A stretch of DNA of 64,000 nucleotides from Prosthecobacter dejongeii (lineage in GTDB: Bacteria > Verrucomicrobiota > Verrucomicrobiia > Verrucomicrobiales > Verrucomicrobiaceae): NCBI RefSeq assembly GCF_014203045.1, contig NZ_JACHIF010000012.1, positions 62,001 to 126,000 on the forward strand, written 5' to 3'. Positions 26,494-49,914 of the stretch are shown piece by piece. The notes beneath the pieces are model-generated. The model searched no databases. It saw only the letters and a program-made list of their open reading frames with translations, and was not told the DNA's origin. Made by a program: the position numbers and the translations under genes. How positions within the stretch are numbered: position 1 is the first letter of the stretch; every line of letters begins with the position of its first letter.

Positions 26494-29079
26494 TCAATGT
26501 GCCGGAGCCCCGCCTGATGGCAAGTAAGCATCGCCAGCCCCGCCGACCTTCTTTTCATACTCCCGCCACAGGCGCTCGATGGCTTCCTCAGGATCTTCCA
26601 GCATGAGACCTTCTTTGATTTTGCTGGCGAAAATGCCAAAGGAAAAAGGGCTCACCACAGGGACTTCGACCAGTCTCCATTCCAACTTAGGAGCAAGCTG
26701 GAGGAAATCCATGGCACGCGGTAGGTCCAAGAAGGTGTGGGTGGCCTCGCGGTAGGACTGGACCAGCATGGGGTGGTCGGGCTCATGCTCGGACAACACT
26801 CGAAAAAGGATTTCCGAACTCCACCTGAGTTGTTTGATCTTGCGATCCTGTCCTGGGCGGTTGCGTGGCACCATGAGCCCTGTTTGAGCCACCCCACGAA
26901 AGTTCCATTTCACCAGCTCGCTGTGTTGCAGAGAGGCCTTCATATCCGCCTCGGCATCGCCATTCTGAAAAATCACTTTCCACTCTTCCAGGCCCAGACT
27001 TTGAAAGGAGCGCAGGGTGAGCAAAAAGCCGTAATCATCAATGGTCACCATGGCATTGCCGCCCACGGCTTCTTTGACCCGATAGGCAATGATGCGGCTG
27101 AGGGCATCATTGGCACTGCGGCCGATGAGGGTGTGAAAAAAGAACTGCACGAGGTCGGCATCGCTGCCCTCACGGTCATCCACAAAACGCTCAATGAGAA
27201 GCGAGTGCTCCGTGGGGATTCGTGAAACACGAAGCTGATTCTGACAATGCAGTACGATCGCTAAAGCATTGCTGTTGGAGATCTCGAATCGCTCGATCAA
27301 CCATTCGCAAACCTCTTCGTTGCTATCGGTCCCCACCCGCGCAGCCAGCTCCGTTCTTAACCGGGCCACCTCATGAGCCAGACCGGAGGTCAGTGGCATC
27401 TTGTTCGCATTCCAGGCGGGCACCGTAGGCAGGCGGCCCATCGCATCTTCCACCTTCGCTTCTCCCACACCGCTTTCCAGCAGACGCACCATGCGACCAG
27501 CCAGGACAAAGATGTCGCCGTTTTTCAGCCGCTTGAGGAAACTTTCCTCGATCTGGCCCAGGCGTCTTTTCCCGAGATACACCGTCACCATGCCCTCCGT
27601 GTGGATGACCCCGACATTGGCCAGATACTCGCGCTCCACCTTTTTGTTAGGCACCGTGAGGCAATCATCCAGCCAGATGATCTTACCAAAGTTCTCCCGA
27701 TACTGTTTTTCCAGAGAGCGGCCACCGCCCTCCAGATAGTTTAAGACGCTATCCAGCTCTTCCTCCGTGAGGTCTCGATAGGGAAAGGCAGCGCGCAGAG
27801 TGCTCAGCGCCATCTCACGGGTATAGCCACCTTCCATGGCCATGCCCACCAGGTGCTGGGCCAGCACATCCAGCGGCTTTTCCAGCACTCGCACCGCATC
27901 CAGTTGCACCGCGCGGGTCATCTCCGCACAAACGATGCACTCCATGAGGTCGTTCACATTCGTGGCCACGAGGATGCCATGGCTAGCCATGTGAATGCTG
28001 TGACCGCTGCGGCCGATGCGCTGCAGGGCCCGGCTGATGCCCTTCGGGGTCGAGATCATCACCACGCAGTCCACACTGCCGATATCAATACCCATCTCCA
28101 AACTGGTGCTGCAAACGACCGCCCGAAGCTCGCCGTTTTTCAACCGATCTTCCACCTCCAGGCGCACGTCACGATCCAACGACGCATGGTGAGCCTCAAT
28201 CTTGGGAGCCAGGTCTGGCAAGGCATTCTTCAGACGGATGGAGACACTCTCTGTCGCGCTGCGGGTATTGCAGAAAACGATGACGCTGCGGTTTCTCTCA
28301 ACGATCTGGGCGATGTCTTGCATGACCCTTTGCGCCGTGTAGCCAGCGGGGGGATAGGGATTCCTTCGCACAGGGGACAGCACTTCCACACGACGCCGAC
28401 GCTCCATGCGGGCCTCGATGATCTGGCAGTCACGCCTGGTGCCTACCAGCAACTCCGCCAGCAAGGGCAAGGGTGCCGCCGTGGCTGAAAGGCCGATGCG
28501 AATGAGCGGGCGTGCAAGACGCTGCTGGAGACGCTCCACACTTAACATGAGATGAGCTCCACGTTTATTTTCTGCCAGGGAATGCAGCTCATCCACGATG
28601 ACAAAACGCACGCTTTGCAGGGCCTCTGCCCAGCCTGCCTGAGGTAAAAGGATGGCTAGGCTTTCTGGAGTCGTCAGTAGGATGTGTGGCGGCTTGCGCT
28701 TCAGCTTCGCACGCTCCGTCGTCGAAGTATCCCCGGTGCGCTGGCCGATGCGGATCTCTTCCACCAAGCCCATGCCCTCCAGCGGGGCCATAAGGTTTTT
28801 TTGAATGTCATAAGTCAGCGCCCGCAGCGGCGAGACATAGATGGCATGAATGCCGCTGCCCAGATCCCCAGCCTCATGGGCCCGTACCAGATGGTCCAGG
28901 ATGCCCAAAAAGCCCGCCAATGTTTTGCCACTGCCCGTCGGCGACGAAAGCAAAACGGAGTTCCCAGCCAGGATGTGCGGCAGCGTCAACTCCTGGGCCT
29001 GGGTAAGCTGCCCGAAAGAACCCTCCACCCACTTTTGCACACGAGGATGCGACGCTGAGAGAACGGAAGCCGTCTCCAT
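26494..29079 (-). CDS. lhr: Lhr-type (Lhr-Core) superfamily 2 DNA/RNA helicase
   Basis: 861 residues from ATG 29079. Helicase motif I SSPTGSGKT, motif II VDELH, motif III SAT and motif VI HRIG-type region (LQRIGRSGHS) are visible, with a C-terminal region covering the winged-helix and Lhr-specific domains. Lhr-Core helicases unwind DNA or RNA:DNA hybrids and are linked to DNA repair. It is the first gene of lhr-queF-queC, with only five bases before queF. A longer in-frame start exists but adds unrelated low-complexity sequence. Confidence 0.85.
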   Translation of the reverse strand: METASVLSASHPRVQKWVEGSFGQLTQAQELTLPHILAGNSVLLSSPTGSGKTLAGFLGILDHLVRAHEAGDLGSGIHAIYVSPLRALTYDIQKNLMAPLEGMGLVEEIRIGQRTGDTSTTERAKLKRKPPHILLTTPESLAILLPQAGWAEALQSVRFVIVDELHSLAENKRGAHLMLSVERLQQRLARPLIRIGLSATAAPLPLLAELLVGTRRDCQIIEARMERRRRVEVLSPVRRNPYPPAGYTAQRVMQDIAQIVERNRSVIVFCNTRSATESVSIRLKNALPDLAPKIEAHHASLDRDVRLEVEDRLKNGELRAVVCSTSLEMGIDIGSVDCVVMISTPKGISRALQRIGRSGHSIHMASHGILVATNVNDLMECIVCAEMTRAVQLDAVRVLEKPLDVLAQHLVGMAMEGGYTREMALSTLRAAFPYRDLTEEELDSVLNYLEGGGRSLEKQYRENFGKIIWLDDCLTVPNKKVEREYLANVGVIHTEGMVTVYLGKRRLGQIEESFLKRLKNGDIFVLAGRMVRLLESGVGEAKVEDAMGRLPTVPAWNANKMPLTSGLAHEVARLRTELAARVGTDSNEEVCEWLIERFEISNSNALAIVLHCQNQLRVSRIPTEHSLLIERFVDDREGSDADLVQFFFHTLIGRSANDALSRIIAYRVKEAVGGNAMVTIDDYGFLLTLRSFQSLGLEEWKVIFQNGDAEADMKASLQHSELVKWNFRGVAQTGLMVPRNRPGQDRKIKQLRWSSEILFRVLSEHEPDHPMLVQSYREATHTFLDLPRAMDFLQLAPKLEWRLVEVPVVSPFSFGIFASKIKEGLMLEDPEEAIERLWREYEKKVGGAGDAYLPSGGAPAH

Positions 29080-45563: not shown

Positions 45564-45683
45564 TTTCCAGCCTCCTCATAGCCAGTCCTCCAGCGTTTTT
45601 ATCCAGACCACCCTTCCCACGCCGCCCCCTTCTTTTCCGTGGTCAAGGCTCAATCCTCCGCCATAGTGCGCGCCCTTTCTGCC

Positions 45684-48446
45684 ATGTCCGCCGTCCCTAC
45701 CGCCGCCCAGATTCGCCAGACGTTCCTCGACTTTTTCAAGTCCAAGGATCACACCATCGTCCCCAGTGACAACGTGGGCTACACCAGCCGCGACGGCGCA
45801 CGTATCTTTACTAATGCGGGCATGAACCAGTTCGTCCCCATCTTCCTGGGCGAGCGCAGTGCCGATGTGGACACCTGGCCAGGCGTGCTTTCCAAAGGCC
45901 TGCCCACCCGTGCTGCCGATACGCAGAAGTGCATCCGCGCCGGCGGTAAGCACAATGACCTCGAAGACGTGGGCCTGGATACCTACCACCACACTTTCTT
46001 TGAAATGCTGGGGAACTGGTCCTTTGGCGACTACTTCAAAAAAGAGGCCATCTCCTGGAGCTGGGAGCTCATCGTCGAGCGTTTCAAATTCCCGCCGAGC
46101 CGCGTCTTCGCCACCATCTACCAGCCTAACAAAGAGAAGGGTGATCCGGCGGATCGTGACCAGGAAAGCTGGGACCTGTGGGCTGAAAAATTCCGCTCCG
46201 TGGGTCTCGACCCTGAGATCCACATCGTCAACGGCAACAAGAAGGACAACTTCTGGATGATGGCCGATACCGGCCCCTGCGGCCCGTGCACGGAGATCCA
46301 CATTGACCTCACCCCCGGGCCGATTGAGCTCAGCGAAGAACGCCAGCGTGCCGGGGCCAAGCTGGTCAATGGCAGCGACGCGAGCTGCATCGAAATCTGG
46401 AACAACGTTTTCATTCAGTACAACGCCAACCCGGACGGCACTTTCACCCCGCTGCCTGCGCAGCACGTGGATACCGGCATGGGCTTTGAGCGCCTGACCT
46501 CCATCATCCAGGGCACAAAAAACTTCACGGACTTTGAGACCGCGAAGATCAGCAACTACGACACGGATGTCTTCAAGCCGATCTTTGATGAACTGACCCG
46601 CCTGAGCGGCAAGCATTACCAGAGCACCCTGCCCCTGCCCAATGAACAGGGCCACGTCATCCCCGTGACGGAACAGGAGAAAGTGGACGTCGCCTTCCGT
46701 GTCATCGCCGATCATCTTCGCACGCTCAGCTTCTCCATTGCCGATGGCATCCAGCCCGGCAACAGCGACCGCAACTACACCCTCCGCCGCATCCTGCGCC
46801 GCGCCGTGAAGTATGGCCGCACCCTGGAATTCAAAGAGCCCTTCTTCTACAAACTCGTGGACGTGCTAGCCCTGCACATGGGCGATGTCTTCCCCGAACT
46901 GCGCGCACGCAAAGATCAGATCAAAGCGGTGCTGAAGGTGGAAGAAGAGGCGTTTAACCGGACGCTGGATCGCGGAATTGCCTTGTTCGAATCGGAGGCG
47001 TCTAAAGGATCTTCTATTACGGGTGACTTTGCTTTCCAACTTTACGACACCTTTGGTTTTCCCCTCGACCTCACGGAGCTTCTCGCTCGCGAGCGCGGCC
47101 TAACTGTTGATACAGAAGGCTTCGAGAAACTCATGACCGAACAGCGCGAGCGCGCCCGTTCTGCCATGAAAAAGAACGTCGTCTCCGTCAGCGAAATCGA
47201 AACGAAAGAGCCCACCAAGTTCATCGGTTATGACGAACTGGAGACCGAAGCCAAGGTGCTGGAAATCGTAGCAATGAAAGACAAAACGGCCATCATTCTT
47301 GATAGCAGTGTTTGTTATGCCGAGATGGGCGGCCAGATCGGCGACAGCGGTCAAATCATCTTGGGCGCTAATACTTACCCAGTTTCCAGTACGACCAAGG
47401 TGGGCAATACCTGGTTGCATTTCATCGAAGGTGAAGAAGCTCCTGCTGAAGGGGCTCTCGTGCGTCTAGCTGTGGATGGTCCGCGTCGTCACGCTATTGA
47501 GCGCCACCACACGGCCACGCATTTGCTCCACTGGGCCCTGCATGAAGTCGTGAACCAGGAGGCCACTCAAAAGGGCTCCAACGTCACAGCGGAAAAGCTG
47601 ACCTTTGACTTTAACAATGCTGCCCTCACTGCGGGCCAGCTCGCGGATATCGAGAAGCTGGTGAATGAGCGCATCGTGGCGAATGACTCCGTTTCATGGA
47701 ACGAGATTCCGTATGCGGAGGCCAAGAACAACACGGGCATCATGCAGCTCTTTGGTGAGAAGTATCCGGAGAACGTCCGCGTGGTGCAGATCGGCGGCAA
47801 GCCGCTGGCCCTGGATGGTTACAGCATGGAACTCTGCGGCGGTACCCACACCCGTCACACAGGCGAGATCGGCCTGTTCCGCCTGATTGGCGAAGGGGCA
47901 GTGGCTGCTGGCGTGCGCCGCATCGAAGCCATCGCCGGACTGGAAGCCTACCACGCTGCCCGTGCCGATGCCGACCTGCTGAAGCTGCTGGCGGGCAAGG
48001 TCAGCGCCCAAGGAGTGAGTGATCTGGAGAAGAAGATTGATAACCTTTTGGCCCAACAAAAAGAGCTGGAAAAAGCCCTCAAGGCCGCCCAGCAGCGCGA
48101 AGCTTCCGGCAAGGCGAAGGAACTCCTTGCGACGGCTGAAAACAACGTTCTCATCGCCAACCTCGGGGATGTTGATGGCGACTATGCCATGGCCGTGAAC
48201 GATGCCCTCAAAGGCGTGTTTAATGGTGTCATCGTCCTGGCCTCCATCGGTGGCGGCAACGTGACCCTCATGGCCACCGTTTCCAAAGAGCATCAGGCCA
48301 AGGTGCAGGCCGGCAAGATCATCCAGACCATTGCCCCCATCGTCGGTGGCAAAGGTGGTGGCAAACCCGACTTCGCCCGTGGCGGCGGCAAGGACGTCTC
48401 GAAAGTGGACGCCGCCCTCGCCGAAGCCCGCAAGCTGGTGGGTTAA
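45684..48446 (+). CDS. alaS: alanyl-tRNA synthetase
   Basis: 920 residues from ATG 45684, normal for bacteria. The N-terminal aminoacylation domain begins AQIRQTFLDFFKSKDHTIV and includes FTNAGMNQFVPIFLG; the editing domain carries ERHHTATHLLHWAL and CGGTHTRHTGEIG; the C-terminal coiled coil (about 775-810) and C-Ala domain end GGGKPDFARGGGKD. It charges tRNA-Ala and removes misactivated Ser/Gly. Earlier in-frame GTG and ATG codons are unlikely starts. Confidence 0.97.
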   Translation: MSAVPTAAQIRQTFLDFFKSKDHTIVPSDNVGYTSRDGARIFTNAGMNQFVPIFLGERSADVDTWPGVLSKGLPTRAADTQKCIRAGGKHNDLEDVGLDTYHHTFFEMLGNWSFGDYFKKEAISWSWELIVERFKFPPSRVFATIYQPNKEKGDPADRDQESWDLWAEKFRSVGLDPEIHIVNGNKKDNFWMMADTGPCGPCTEIHIDLTPGPIELSEERQRAGAKLVNGSDASCIEIWNNVFIQYNANPDGTFTPLPAQHVDTGMGFERLTSIIQGTKNFTDFETAKISNYDTDVFKPIFDELTRLSGKHYQSTLPLPNEQGHVIPVTEQEKVDVAFRVIADHLRTLSFSIADGIQPGNSDRNYTLRRILRRAVKYGRTLEFKEPFFYKLVDVLALHMGDVFPELRARKDQIKAVLKVEEEAFNRTLDRGIALFESEASKGSSITGDFAFQLYDTFGFPLDLTELLARERGLTVDTEGFEKLMTEQRERARSAMKKNVVSVSEIETKEPTKFIGYDELETEAKVLEIVAMKDKTAIILDSSVCYAEMGGQIGDSGQIILGANTYPVSSTTKVGNTWLHFIEGEEAPAEGALVRLAVDGPRRHAIERHHTATHLLHWALHEVVNQEATQKGSNVTAEKLTFDFNNAALTAGQLADIEKLVNERIVANDSVSWNEIPYAEAKNNTGIMQLFGEKYPENVRVVQIGGKPLALDGYSMELCGGTHTRHTGEIGLFRLIGEGAVAAGVRRIEAIAGLEAYHAARADADLLKLLAGKVSAQGVSDLEKKIDNLLAQQKELEKALKAAQQREASGKAKELLATAENNVLIANLGDVDGDYAMAVNDALKGVFNGVIVLASIGGGNVTLMATVSKEHQAKVQAGKIIQTIAPIVGGKGGGKPDFARGGGKDVSKVDAALAEARKLVG

Positions 48447-48465
48447 ATCCCCCGCCCCGCCGCAC

Positions 48466-48619
48466 GGAGCGCGAGTATGCTGAGCGTAGCGATGCTACTC
48501 GCCTCTTTTTGTGGTCTCGCTTCTCCAGCGGCCAAGGCCACTTCCTCATCCCCCACCTCACAGCCCTTTCCGGTCTTCAACACACTAGGAAAGTTAGGCG
48601 AGTAAAATACTCGCGCTCC
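48466..48619. repeat. 154-bp element with 13-bp terminal inverted repeats, copy 1
   Basis: Starts GGAGCGCGAGTAT (48466-48478) and ends with its exact inverse complement ATACTCGCGCTCC (48607-48619). Internal arms TACTCGCCT (left) and AGGCGAGTA (right) extend the pairing, and each side can also fold on itself, so the whole could form a long branched hairpin. Nearly the same length and sequence as copy 2, 18 bases away. No credible coding content. MITE-like or REP/RAYT-type element by structure (inference). With copy 2 it fills the 388-base gap after alaS. Confidence 0.85.
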
Positions 48620-48637
48620 CACAAGCCCTCGCTGCAT

Positions 48638-48791
48638 GGAGCGCGAGTATGCTGAGCGCAGCGATGCTACTCGCCTCTTTATGTGGTCTTGGGTCTCAAT
48701 CGGCCAAGGCCACTTCCTCATCCCACACCGCACAGCACTTTCCGGCCTTGAACACACTAAGAAAGTTAGGCGAGTAAAATACTCGCGCTCC
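48638..48791. repeat. 154-bp element with 13-bp terminal inverted repeats, copy 2
   Basis: Same 13-bp ends (48638-48650 and 48779-48791) and same length as copy 1, differing at scattered bases including TTTTTG/TTTATG and the segment after TGTGGTCT. Same orientation as copy 1, separated by 18 bases. Ends 43 bases before the 3' end of the pectate-lyase gene. Could act as a transcript-end structure for either flanking gene. Confidence 0.85.
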
Positions 48792-48834
48792 CCCGCAGAG
48801 AAAAACTCAATGCGCTAAAACAGTCTAATCCTCT

Positions 48835-49914
48835 TCACTTGAAACCCTGTTTAGATTGCCACTTGGGGTAATCATCTTCCAATAAGGAGGCTGGCCAAGT
48901 GCCGTAATAGGCATAACCATTGCGGCGTTCGAACTCGATCTCCCCGATGCTGTAGTGAAAAACGGAGTCACGTCCCAGGAAGAGAGGGCGATGTGTTTTC
49001 AATTCATAAAAGCGCGCCCACAATGGGCTGGCTGTGGCATCCCCCACAACCCGACGGTCTTGTTTACCTTCGGCATTTTTAAAAGTTTCTAACCGGACTC
49101 CTTTAATAGCGGCGGCCTGAAGCCAACGGATGGCTGCTTCAATGGATGCGATTATTTCAGGCGTAGGTTTTTCGATTTCCATGAGGAAACGAACCACCCC
49201 GACACTTTCGCTACCAGAAAGGGAGGGCGGCTCATACTTTCGTGCCCAAGCTGGCTCCAGAGTCGCCTCATGGTGCTGGGCACACCAGACGGTAAGCTTG
49301 CCATTTTCTCGAATCTGAGTTTTCAGAATGCAACGGATCCCCTTTTCATTTGCCTGAGCGGCTTTTTCACGATGCAAATCATCCACGAAAGTAAAAGGAG
49401 GCCGACCGCTTGCAACGTCCCGCAGCAGCTCGAGGGCGCTAATCATGGCGTTGTCGTTGTAGGTGATATGGGAGTAATATCCGGAAGGGCGGAGAGGATA
49501 AAACTGCGGGAATCCCCCATTCTCGTACTGTGAGTCTAACAAATAATCTATTCCTTTGATGACTGCCTTCTGATACGACTCTCCACCCCCGGCTTCGGTT
49601 ATCAAAGCCAGAAATCTTATGGGGGCAGTTGTCGAGCCGTTATCAATGGTATTGCCTTTTTCTTTTTGAATCTTGGCGAGTTCTTCTGCCGAAGAAGGAG
49701 GCTTCAGTAAATCGTGATTTTTTGGCCACGCACCTTCCGCAGATTGGTAGAGCAACACCGTTTGAGCCGCAGCACGAGCTTCGGCCCCAGCATACCAATC
49801 GGGTTTTTGTTTGAGCAGCTTGGTGCTCCATGAGTTCGTGGCATCGGCGGCATGGGTGCATTGTAGCAGGGCAAAAAGTGTAACTAAACACCCCGTGAAG
49901 CTTGAAATTTTCAT
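48835..49914 (-). CDS. secreted pectate lyase (PL10-like)
   Basis: 359 residues. Signal peptide ending near CTHAAD. PL10 features: LYQSAEGAWPKNHD, TIDNGSTT, NGGFPQFYPLR, ITYNDNAM, VWCAQHHEATLEPAWARKYEPPSLSGSES and ARFYELKTHRPLF. PL10 enzymes cut polygalacturonate by beta-elimination with calcium and a catalytic Arg. It is the last gene of the BNR run, with 83 bases to the gene before it, so it may be separately controlled. Catalytic competence looks intact but is untested. Confidence 0.88.
   Translation of the reverse strand: MKISSFTGCLVTLFALLQCTHAADATNSWSTKLLKQKPDWYAGAEARAAAQTVLLYQSAEGAWPKNHDLLKPPSSAEELAKIQKEKGNTIDNGSTTAPIRFLALITEAGGGESYQKAVIKGIDYLLDSQYENGGFPQFYPLRPSGYYSHITYNDNAMISALELLRDVASGRPPFTFVDDLHREKAAQANEKGIRCILKTQIRENGKLTVWCAQHHEATLEPAWARKYEPPSLSGSESVGVVRFLMEIEKPTPEIIASIEAAIRWLQAAAIKGVRLETFKNAEGKQDRRVVGDATASPLWARFYELKTHRPLFLGRDSVFHYSIGEIEFERRNGYAYYGTWPASLLEDDYPKWQSKQGFK

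Follow-up and report, generated by a model that had tools for sequence, protein, structure and literature searches.

A tandem pair of REPINs downstream of alaS in Prosthecobacter dejongeii, the probable remnant of a RAYT locus

Directly after the alanyl-tRNA synthetase gene (alaS) of Prosthecobacter dejongeii, two asymmetric REPINs belonging to a GGAG-tagged REP family stand in tandem. The window, i.e. the whole stretch of 64,000 nucleotides that was analysed, lies on contig C12; the assembly has 22 contigs, a total size of 6.0 Mb and a completeness of 96.4%. What matters beyond the elements themselves is the locus, as three relatives keep a matching RAYT at the 3' end of alaS. Probably, with a chance that we put at roughly 0.6, the pair is an array left at a RAYT docking site after alaS, where it outlived the loss of the RAYT.

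Structure of the tandem pair

The REPIN pair occupies the gap between the convergent alaS and pectate lyase genes. Its features are as follows (positions are those of the window).

45639 to 48446, plus strand: alaS (alanyl-tRNA synthetase), upstream neighbour; Pfam tRNA-synt_2c, tRNA_SAD and DHHA1
48447 to 48465, no strand: 19-bp gap from the alaS stop to copy 1
48466 to 48619, plus strand: REPIN copy 1, 154 bp
48466 to 48503, plus strand: GGAG-tagged REP hairpin at the A end of copy 1, a long stem-loop of 38 nt
48597 to 48619, minus strand: 23-nt REP hairpin at the B end of copy 1, with tail TAACTTTCC, among the 39 exact REP pattern matches in the host genome
48620 to 48637, no strand: 18-bp spacer, whose final 11 bp are similar to the 11 bp preceding copy 1
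48638 to 48791, plus strand: REPIN copy 2, 154 bp
48638 to 48675, plus strand: A-end REP hairpin of copy 2
48683 to 48713, plus strand: internal stem of copy 2 (GTGGTCTTGG / CCAAGGCCAC); the counterpart in copy 1 is weaker
48769 to 48791, minus strand: B-end REP hairpin of copy 2, an exact REP pattern match
48835 to 49914, minus strand: pectate lyase gene, convergent downstream neighbour; Pfam Pec_lyase, 338.6 bits

The two copies are in direct orientation, 18 bp apart. Each consists of a 38-nt hairpin (A end), a 93-bp core and an inverted 23-nt hairpin (B end), and is bounded by GGAGCGCGAGTAT and ATACTCGCGCTCC, 13-bp terminal inverted repeats that are 100% complementary. A and B ends both start with GGAGCGCG. 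The A-end hairpin is built as GGAGCGCGAGTA, a short inner stem and then TACTCGCC, and in the window copies the tag is preceded by CAC or CAT (CAC-GGAG and CAT-GGAG). The copies differ at 13 of 154 positions (91.6% identity), with one difference in the A end (38 nt), 12 in the core (93 nt) and none in the B end (23 nt). Their similarity extends 11 bp leftward of each copy, indicating that the duplicated unit measured about 172 bp, spacer included.

Folding with DNA parameters gave a long hairpin of -29.8 kcal/mol for copy 1 and -33.5 kcal/mol for copy 2. When only local pairs were allowed, the folds were weaker (-26.0 and -28.8 kcal/mol). These correspond to the two folds discussed for REPINs in the available text of PMC3116915. 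Compared with dinucleotide shuffles, copy 1 folded as RNA and copy 2 folded as DNA both had a z-score of -4.8, and none of 200 shuffles was as good in either case. The unit thus has two inverted REP hairpins with a spacer between them and can, in the computed fold, form a larger hairpin, as is typical of a REPIN.

The pair is extragenic, and so are the REPs at alaS loci, to which the check extended. Three mechanical open reading frames cross the pair, two on the minus strand (48319-48561 and 48443-48757) and one on the plus strand (48636-48818). Rfam families gave no match at gathering score in the window. The 12-mer GGAGCGCGAGTA recurs exactly at 27626-27637 on the minus strand, inside a 937-aa frame that is helicase-like by eye, and the REP stem is absent after this copy.

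The initial annotation, made from the letters of the window, had described equal-length, near-identical direct copies 18 bp apart, perfect 13-bp terminal inverted repeats, internal arms that extend the pairing, and spurious reading frames on both strands. All of these descriptions held, and the folding that it proposed as a check agreed with them. Its remark that the window contains no transposase gene agrees with the Y1 transposase search, as none of the 16 matches of the host genome falls there.

The REP family in the host genome

A REP hairpin pattern in which the stem pairs were left free matched the host genome 45 times with at most one mismatch, 39 times exactly, and the reversed pattern used as a control gave no match; the REP is thus repeated in this genome. 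The stem covaries (GAGTA/TACTC, GAATA/TATTC, GAGTT/AACTC). Among 35 distinct sequences, two free stem pairs showed complementarity in 32 and 33 cases, compared to shuffle means of 27.6 and 23.3 and to maxima of 31 and 29 in 2000 shuffles, counts that are inflated by sequence kinship and include a few sequences that are likely not REPs. Of 93 distinct REP copies, 71 have CT and 19 have CA as the two bases that follow the stem (after TCGC), the C being partly ascertained by the search patterns and the second base being free. The canonical GT[AG]G tetranucleotide was not found at the foot of the hairpins in the window, and the tag of the family is GGAG.

The full 154-bp unit has no further copy in the host assembly outside the window locus. 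Searching with the unit returned 12 places, namely the two window copies and ten partial matches (nine of the right end, one of the left end). The window-type A end was detected once more in the host genome, at G000:C2:573110-573147, and this type also occurs in G018, G056 and G064. Other facing pairs of exact REP matches are located at C1:392606-392712 (107 bp) and, twice, on C5 (272 and 291 bp). Most exact host matches have no facing partner within 200 bp, and many single REPs are embedded in a longer repeat whose flanks are conserved as well. The distribution of matches is uneven: 28 of 44 host pattern matches lie within G000:C3:11278-142432 and C5:355313-461701, about 4% of the assembly, where they are embedded in a larger conserved intergenic repeat.

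Related elements in congeners

In a search of 56 genomes with the 154-bp unit, ten matched including the host, all of them among the 35 genomes of the same genus; none of the 21 genomes outside the genus did. G018 displayed seven dispersed composites of 158-163 bp with ends of the same kinds as the window unit (two of the seven have one end that has decayed beyond the reach of the hairpin scan), whereas the 154-bp unit of the host is found at the window locus only. Further congeners carry A-B composites of 125-142 bp (five examples). Loci L358 and L359 of G056, which are REPs back to back, were not counted as composites. The flanks of the G018 composites are alike over some 20-45 bp, and those of the G008, G017 and G056 copies are unlike (by eye). 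Therefore the common unit was taken to end at GGAG and CTCC.

The initial annotation had named two observations that would speak against a mobile element: absence of the unit elsewhere in the genome, or an isolated duplication with no related family. The first is indeed what the host genome displays, although congeners hold a related family, as the seven G018 composites illustrate.

The REP pattern was present in 17 of 48 genomes of the genus. As the reversed control pattern gave one or two matches in 12 of the 48, single REP pattern matches mean little, and three of the 17 genomes have one match. A loose-pattern scan of the genome collection was discarded: among the matches listed, most were in unrelated phyla and were taken for chance.

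A RAYT clade linked to the GGAG REP

A RAYT query of the 48 genus genomes returned six proteins that are 71-100% identical to the RAYT of G011 (in G011, G067, G031, G056, G032 and G018). The next RAYTs reach at most 56% identity to it, and the best host RAYT 48%. The six form one clade, with support 98/89, in a tree of 51 RAYT loci (a subset of all RAYT matches found). No host RAYT belongs to this clade, whether in the tree of 51, in the 48-genome query or in the whole host assembly. The flanks of all 16 host Y1 matches were also scanned, ten loci with one pattern and six with another, and the window REP was found at none.

All six clade RAYTs have an exact REP pattern within 400 bp (nearest 20-106 bp), compared to none of 46 RAYTs under 70% identity. 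In congeners, the matching RAYT is thus flanked by the same REP. It occurs in six of the 17 genomes with the REP pattern and in none of the 31 without it (p 0.001, phylogeny not corrected for). When one tag mismatch was allowed, GGAG-type hairpins were detected near 13 of the 46 other RAYTs (35.6-54.8% identity), indicating that neighbouring RAYT families use similar tags. Where sequences were inspected, the stems of these hairpins are different, e.g. GGAGCGCGGGTTTCCAAACCCGC beside the host C10 RAYT. Given the other stems and the lack of any exact pattern at the 46, those RAYTs were treated as sister families.

Judged from its sequence, the RAYT linked to the GGAG REP is a HUH/Y1 enzyme. Scoring covered four of the six clade members (those of G011, G018, G032 and G056). 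With the REP_Tyr_transpos model (NCBIfam NF047646, cut-off 80 bits), G011 (82.1), G032 (91.5) and G056 (86.8) exceeded the cut-off and G018 fell just under it (79.4). All four were under the cut-off of the IS200 model (20.2-25.8 versus 55 bits).

In G032 and G011, the RAYT frame ends with RSASMA and a stop that the outer bases of the neighbouring REP encode, so that gene and REP overlap. G011 has three units with a 154-bp period between alaS and the RAYT. In G056, a 155-bp REPIN follows another B end after 19 bp, downstream of the RAYT, at a locus that includes a run of N.

These data separate the two options of the initial annotation, a MITE or a REP-type element mobilised by a RAYT. The latter is upheld by the 39 exact REP matches and by the RAYT clade that has the same REP in congeners; the classical MITE is not, since the REPIN consists of two different facing hairpins and not of an element with simple inverted repeats as its bounds. 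A RAYT near matching ends, which had been proposed as a check, is found in congeners at all six clade members and is absent from the host assembly as a whole, beyond the window too.

The alaS 3' end across the genus

The region after alaS was surveyed over 1.1 to 2.6 kb in 43 of the 48 genomes (G062 was left out because its alaS is fragmented; G026, G019, G057 and G021 had no alaS match). Three genomes have the matching RAYT with REPs at this place, two have a REPIN without RAYT, 13 have another RAYT/Y1 gene and 25 have none of these. The matching RAYT follows alaS directly in G011, G067 and G018, pointing the same way as alaS in the first two and the opposite way in G018; in G056, G031 and G032 it is located away from alaS. 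The REPINs without RAYT are those of the host (two in tandem) and of G010 (one, with a changed first base in its outer B end). A search of the 1.5 kb following the host alaS revealed no coding remnant of a RAYT. The distance from the alaS stop to the start of the REPIN is one base in G011, G067 and G010, and 19 bases in the host. The A ends of the window are of the G018/G056 subtype, unlike the alaS-locus subtype of G011, G067 and G010.

The RAYT/Y1 genes at the 13 other occupied alaS ends show 28.9-43.4% identity in the best matched stretches. Examples are L367, L368 and L369, and several have other palindromic repeats right after the stop (TGTAGTCCCGCC..., TTCGGGCTTTAGCCCG, CAAGGAGTGATGG...). 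By eye, a different palindromic repeat stands within about 2 bases of the alaS stop in G031, G016, G028, G008, G068, G066 and G023. G032 and G017 have no element after alaS, yet the site reads TGACGGAG. GGAG is thus present at these element-free ends (TGACGGAGAGGATGATCA and TGACGGAGACGATGATCA), where G011 and G067 read TGACGGAGCGCGAG.

The four nearest relatives by AlaS (G033, G056, G064 and G034) have neither a REP of the window family nor a RAYT in the 1.5 kb after alaS. In G033, the AlaS C-terminus is identical to that of the host over 299 residues and no element follows the gene. Gene order in G033:C2 and host C12 agrees up to the alaS stop, and the alignment stops exactly at that base. 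The two contigs are alignable over 11 kb at 79% DNA identity, with the alaS C-terminus at 91% DNA and 100% protein identity.

As a tentative suggestion, the alaS 3' end might be a recurrent docking site in the genus, at which differing RAYT/Y1 types and repeats settled a few bases past the stop in different species, in at least one case where a GGAG already stood. RAYT loci would then be site-seeking, and not merely inherited in place. RAYT genes have been described as single-copy, vertically inherited and not self-copying (available parts of PMC8049555). A genus in which the same gene end holds different RAYT/REP loci, REPINs alone, or an empty site with the tag offers a natural series that bears on REPIN insertion, array growth and the aftermath of RAYT loss.

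Origin of the pair

According to the reading that we prefer, the two REPINs would be non-autonomous elements of the REP/RAYT system, an IS200/IS605-like single-strand system. By analogy with the TnpA-REP enzymes studied so far (available parts of PMC8266576), the RAYT would bind tag and hairpin at each end in single-stranded DNA. It would then, by the same analogy, cleave next to the stem foot, at CT, and carry the unit elsewhere. The array was presumably enlarged in place through duplication of the 172-bp unit, spacer included. Growth in place by the host replication machinery has been suggested for REPIN arrays (PMC8049555, available parts), and such replication-driven local growth fits the duplicated spacer of the window pair. 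The host would have lost the matching RAYT, most likely leaving the pair stranded as a remnant that may persist passively or be retained as a hairpin at the 3' end of the mRNA. This remnant reading is favoured by the alaS locus shared with relatives and by the same tandem design beside the RAYT in those genomes. The subtype of the window A ends, different from that of the alaS loci of G011, G067 and G010, counts against it, as do the lack of a RAYT coding remnant after the host alaS, the three clade RAYTs located away from alaS, the non-canonical tag and the GGAG-type hairpins near other RAYT families. In addition, as the site is empty in the four nearest AlaS relatives, a new insertion within the host lineage requires fewer steps on the AlaS tree, and with an assembly that is 96.4% complete, a RAYT elsewhere in the host could be missed.

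Such an insertion is the main competitor, possible though clearly less probable: a REPIN could have inserted alone after alaS, at a site attractive to REP elements, and have been duplicated in place without there ever being a RAYT locus. Besides the empty nearest relatives, the GGAG at the empty alaS ends of G032 and G017 is what a pre-existing target motif or precise excision would give, and other palindromic repeats abut the alaS stop too. However, a lone insertion would have hit by coincidence the place where three relatives house the RAYT, unless REPINs truly prefer this site. The 6-Mb genome contains about 40 REP hairpins, so a chance landing on one given gene end seems unlikely, and the host junction, 19 bp before GGAG, is unlike the site in G032 and G017. 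Whether the pair is a remnant or a separate insertion, its units are REPINs.

The remaining alternatives concern function or another kind of element. Retention of the pair for a function between the convergent genes for alanyl-tRNA synthetase and pectate lyase, either as a terminator of transcription in both directions or as a hairpin that stabilises mRNA, is rather unlikely; such a role would in any case be compatible with a REPIN origin. The pair fills the gap between these genes, it folds strongly, its REP ends (61 nt) hold only one of the 13 differences between the copies compared to 12 in the core (93 nt), and CTCTTTTTG comes after the A-end hairpin of copy 1. A terminator scan, however, gave one site against 0.7 expected from shuffles, which is not above chance. 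Such a role leaves the RAYT linkage and the dispersed copies unexplained, and G033, with its identical AlaS C-terminus, does without the pair. A classical MITE, moved by a DDE transposase recognising the 13-bp inverted repeats, is highly improbable despite the perfection of these repeats. Of the flanking target duplications brought up by the initial annotation, copy 1 has a 3-bp CAC on either side (by eye), but no flanking match exists at copy 2, nor, by eye, at the REPINs of G056, G008 and G017 or at the inspected G018 copies. The ends are hairpins of two kinds, mostly without a close partner elsewhere in the host, and the linked enzyme is a HUH/Y1 RAYT according to the searches, which covered Y1 and RAYT proteins. 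Finally, an isolated local duplication of a chance palindrome would agree with the lack of any other full-length copy in the host genome. It was rejected as having a negligible probability in view of the fold z-scores, the REP family matches in the host genome and the related units in congeners.

Relation to known REP systems

REPINs, tandem REPIN clusters and clusters beside RAYTs have already been published (Bertels and Rainey 2011, PMC3116915); here and below, comparisons refer to the available parts of the cited papers. The REPINs of Pseudomonas fluorescens SBW25 described there resemble the window pair in that a variable core lies between two inverted REPs, in their long-hairpin and clover folds, and in tandem clusters that include flanking sequence. 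As in the present family, clusters are found beside the matching RAYT. The window unit differs in its ends, unlike in loop length and tail (A and B), in its GGAG tag, in its length of 154 bp and in the lack of a matching RAYT in the assembly. The REPIN itself thus belongs to a known kind, and what is new is that different RAYT/REP loci have repeatedly occupied the 3' end of alaS.

The REPs and REPtrons tagged with GTAG or CGTC (Di Nocera et al. 2013, PMC3733652) share tagged hairpins beside RAYT genes, and the same source reports a GTAG-type REP in the Verrucomicrobia species O. terrae. The tag of the window family is GGAG instead, preceded by GTA or GTG in only 4 of 93 copies. A Xanthomonas REP, GTAGGAGCGCGCTCGCGCGCGA, in a table of Nunvar et al. 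2010 (PMC2817692), contains GGAGCGCG directly after GTA. The GGAG head may therefore be a GTAG-type head whose first three bases are unfixed. In contrast to this REP, GTA is absent before GGAG in the window copies, which have CAC and CAT there, and in most other copies; stem and loop are also unlike.

The TnpA-REP systems Ec, Sm and Mb (PMC8266576) resemble the window family in having REPs with a tetranucleotide on the 5' side and CT (or CA) next to the stem, and the AG at positions 3-4 of the GGAG tag is shared with GTAG. The reported cut site is CT for two of these enzymes, and both CT and CA for a third. In the window family, CA occurs in 19 of 93 copies and would not be predicted from GGAG by the tag rule of that paper. 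The GGAG tag is an additional variant for testing the model of tag-guided cleavage. IS200/IS605 elements (PMC6006769) likewise have subterminal hairpins at their two ends with a tetranucleotide at the hairpin foot, but the window unit encodes no transposase and the linked RAYTs are below the IS200 cut-off.

GGAG as the start of a word was not found in the available main text of PMC3733652 or in the available text of PMC6006769, PMC2817692, PMC8266576 and PMC12306157; alaS was not found in the available text of PMC6006769, PMC2817692 and PMC12306157. Among the matches listed, no title or abstract opening on Verrucomicrobia RAYTs, Prosthecobacter or REPs described a GGAG REP family, and it is in this sense that we call the family undescribed.

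Other RAYTs and RAYT-like domains

Five further host RAYTs have their own adjoining palindromic repeats, on C10 (L222), C2 (L221), C3 (L219 and L224) and C5 (L223). By eye or scan, these repeats include GGAGCGCGGGTTTCCAAACCCGC and GGAGCGGGACTTGCCAAGTCCCG.

In-frame RAYT insertion may be frequent in the genus. A ClpB open frame of 1092 aa at G000:C6:97649-100927, minus strand (L225:3650-6928), bears an in-frame RAYT-like domain at residues 638-731 (REP_Tyr_transpos 64 bits, Y1_Tnp 47.3 bits), located between two parts that match ClpB. In L337 (G009:C45) and L341 (G015:C633), a RAYT-like domain lies inside a long uninterrupted frame that is dehydrogenase/oxidoreductase-like (names by eye). In L254 (G011:C3), it lies inside a frame that is glycosyltransferase-like by eye, and the short peptide WSADESSA flanks the insert on either side.
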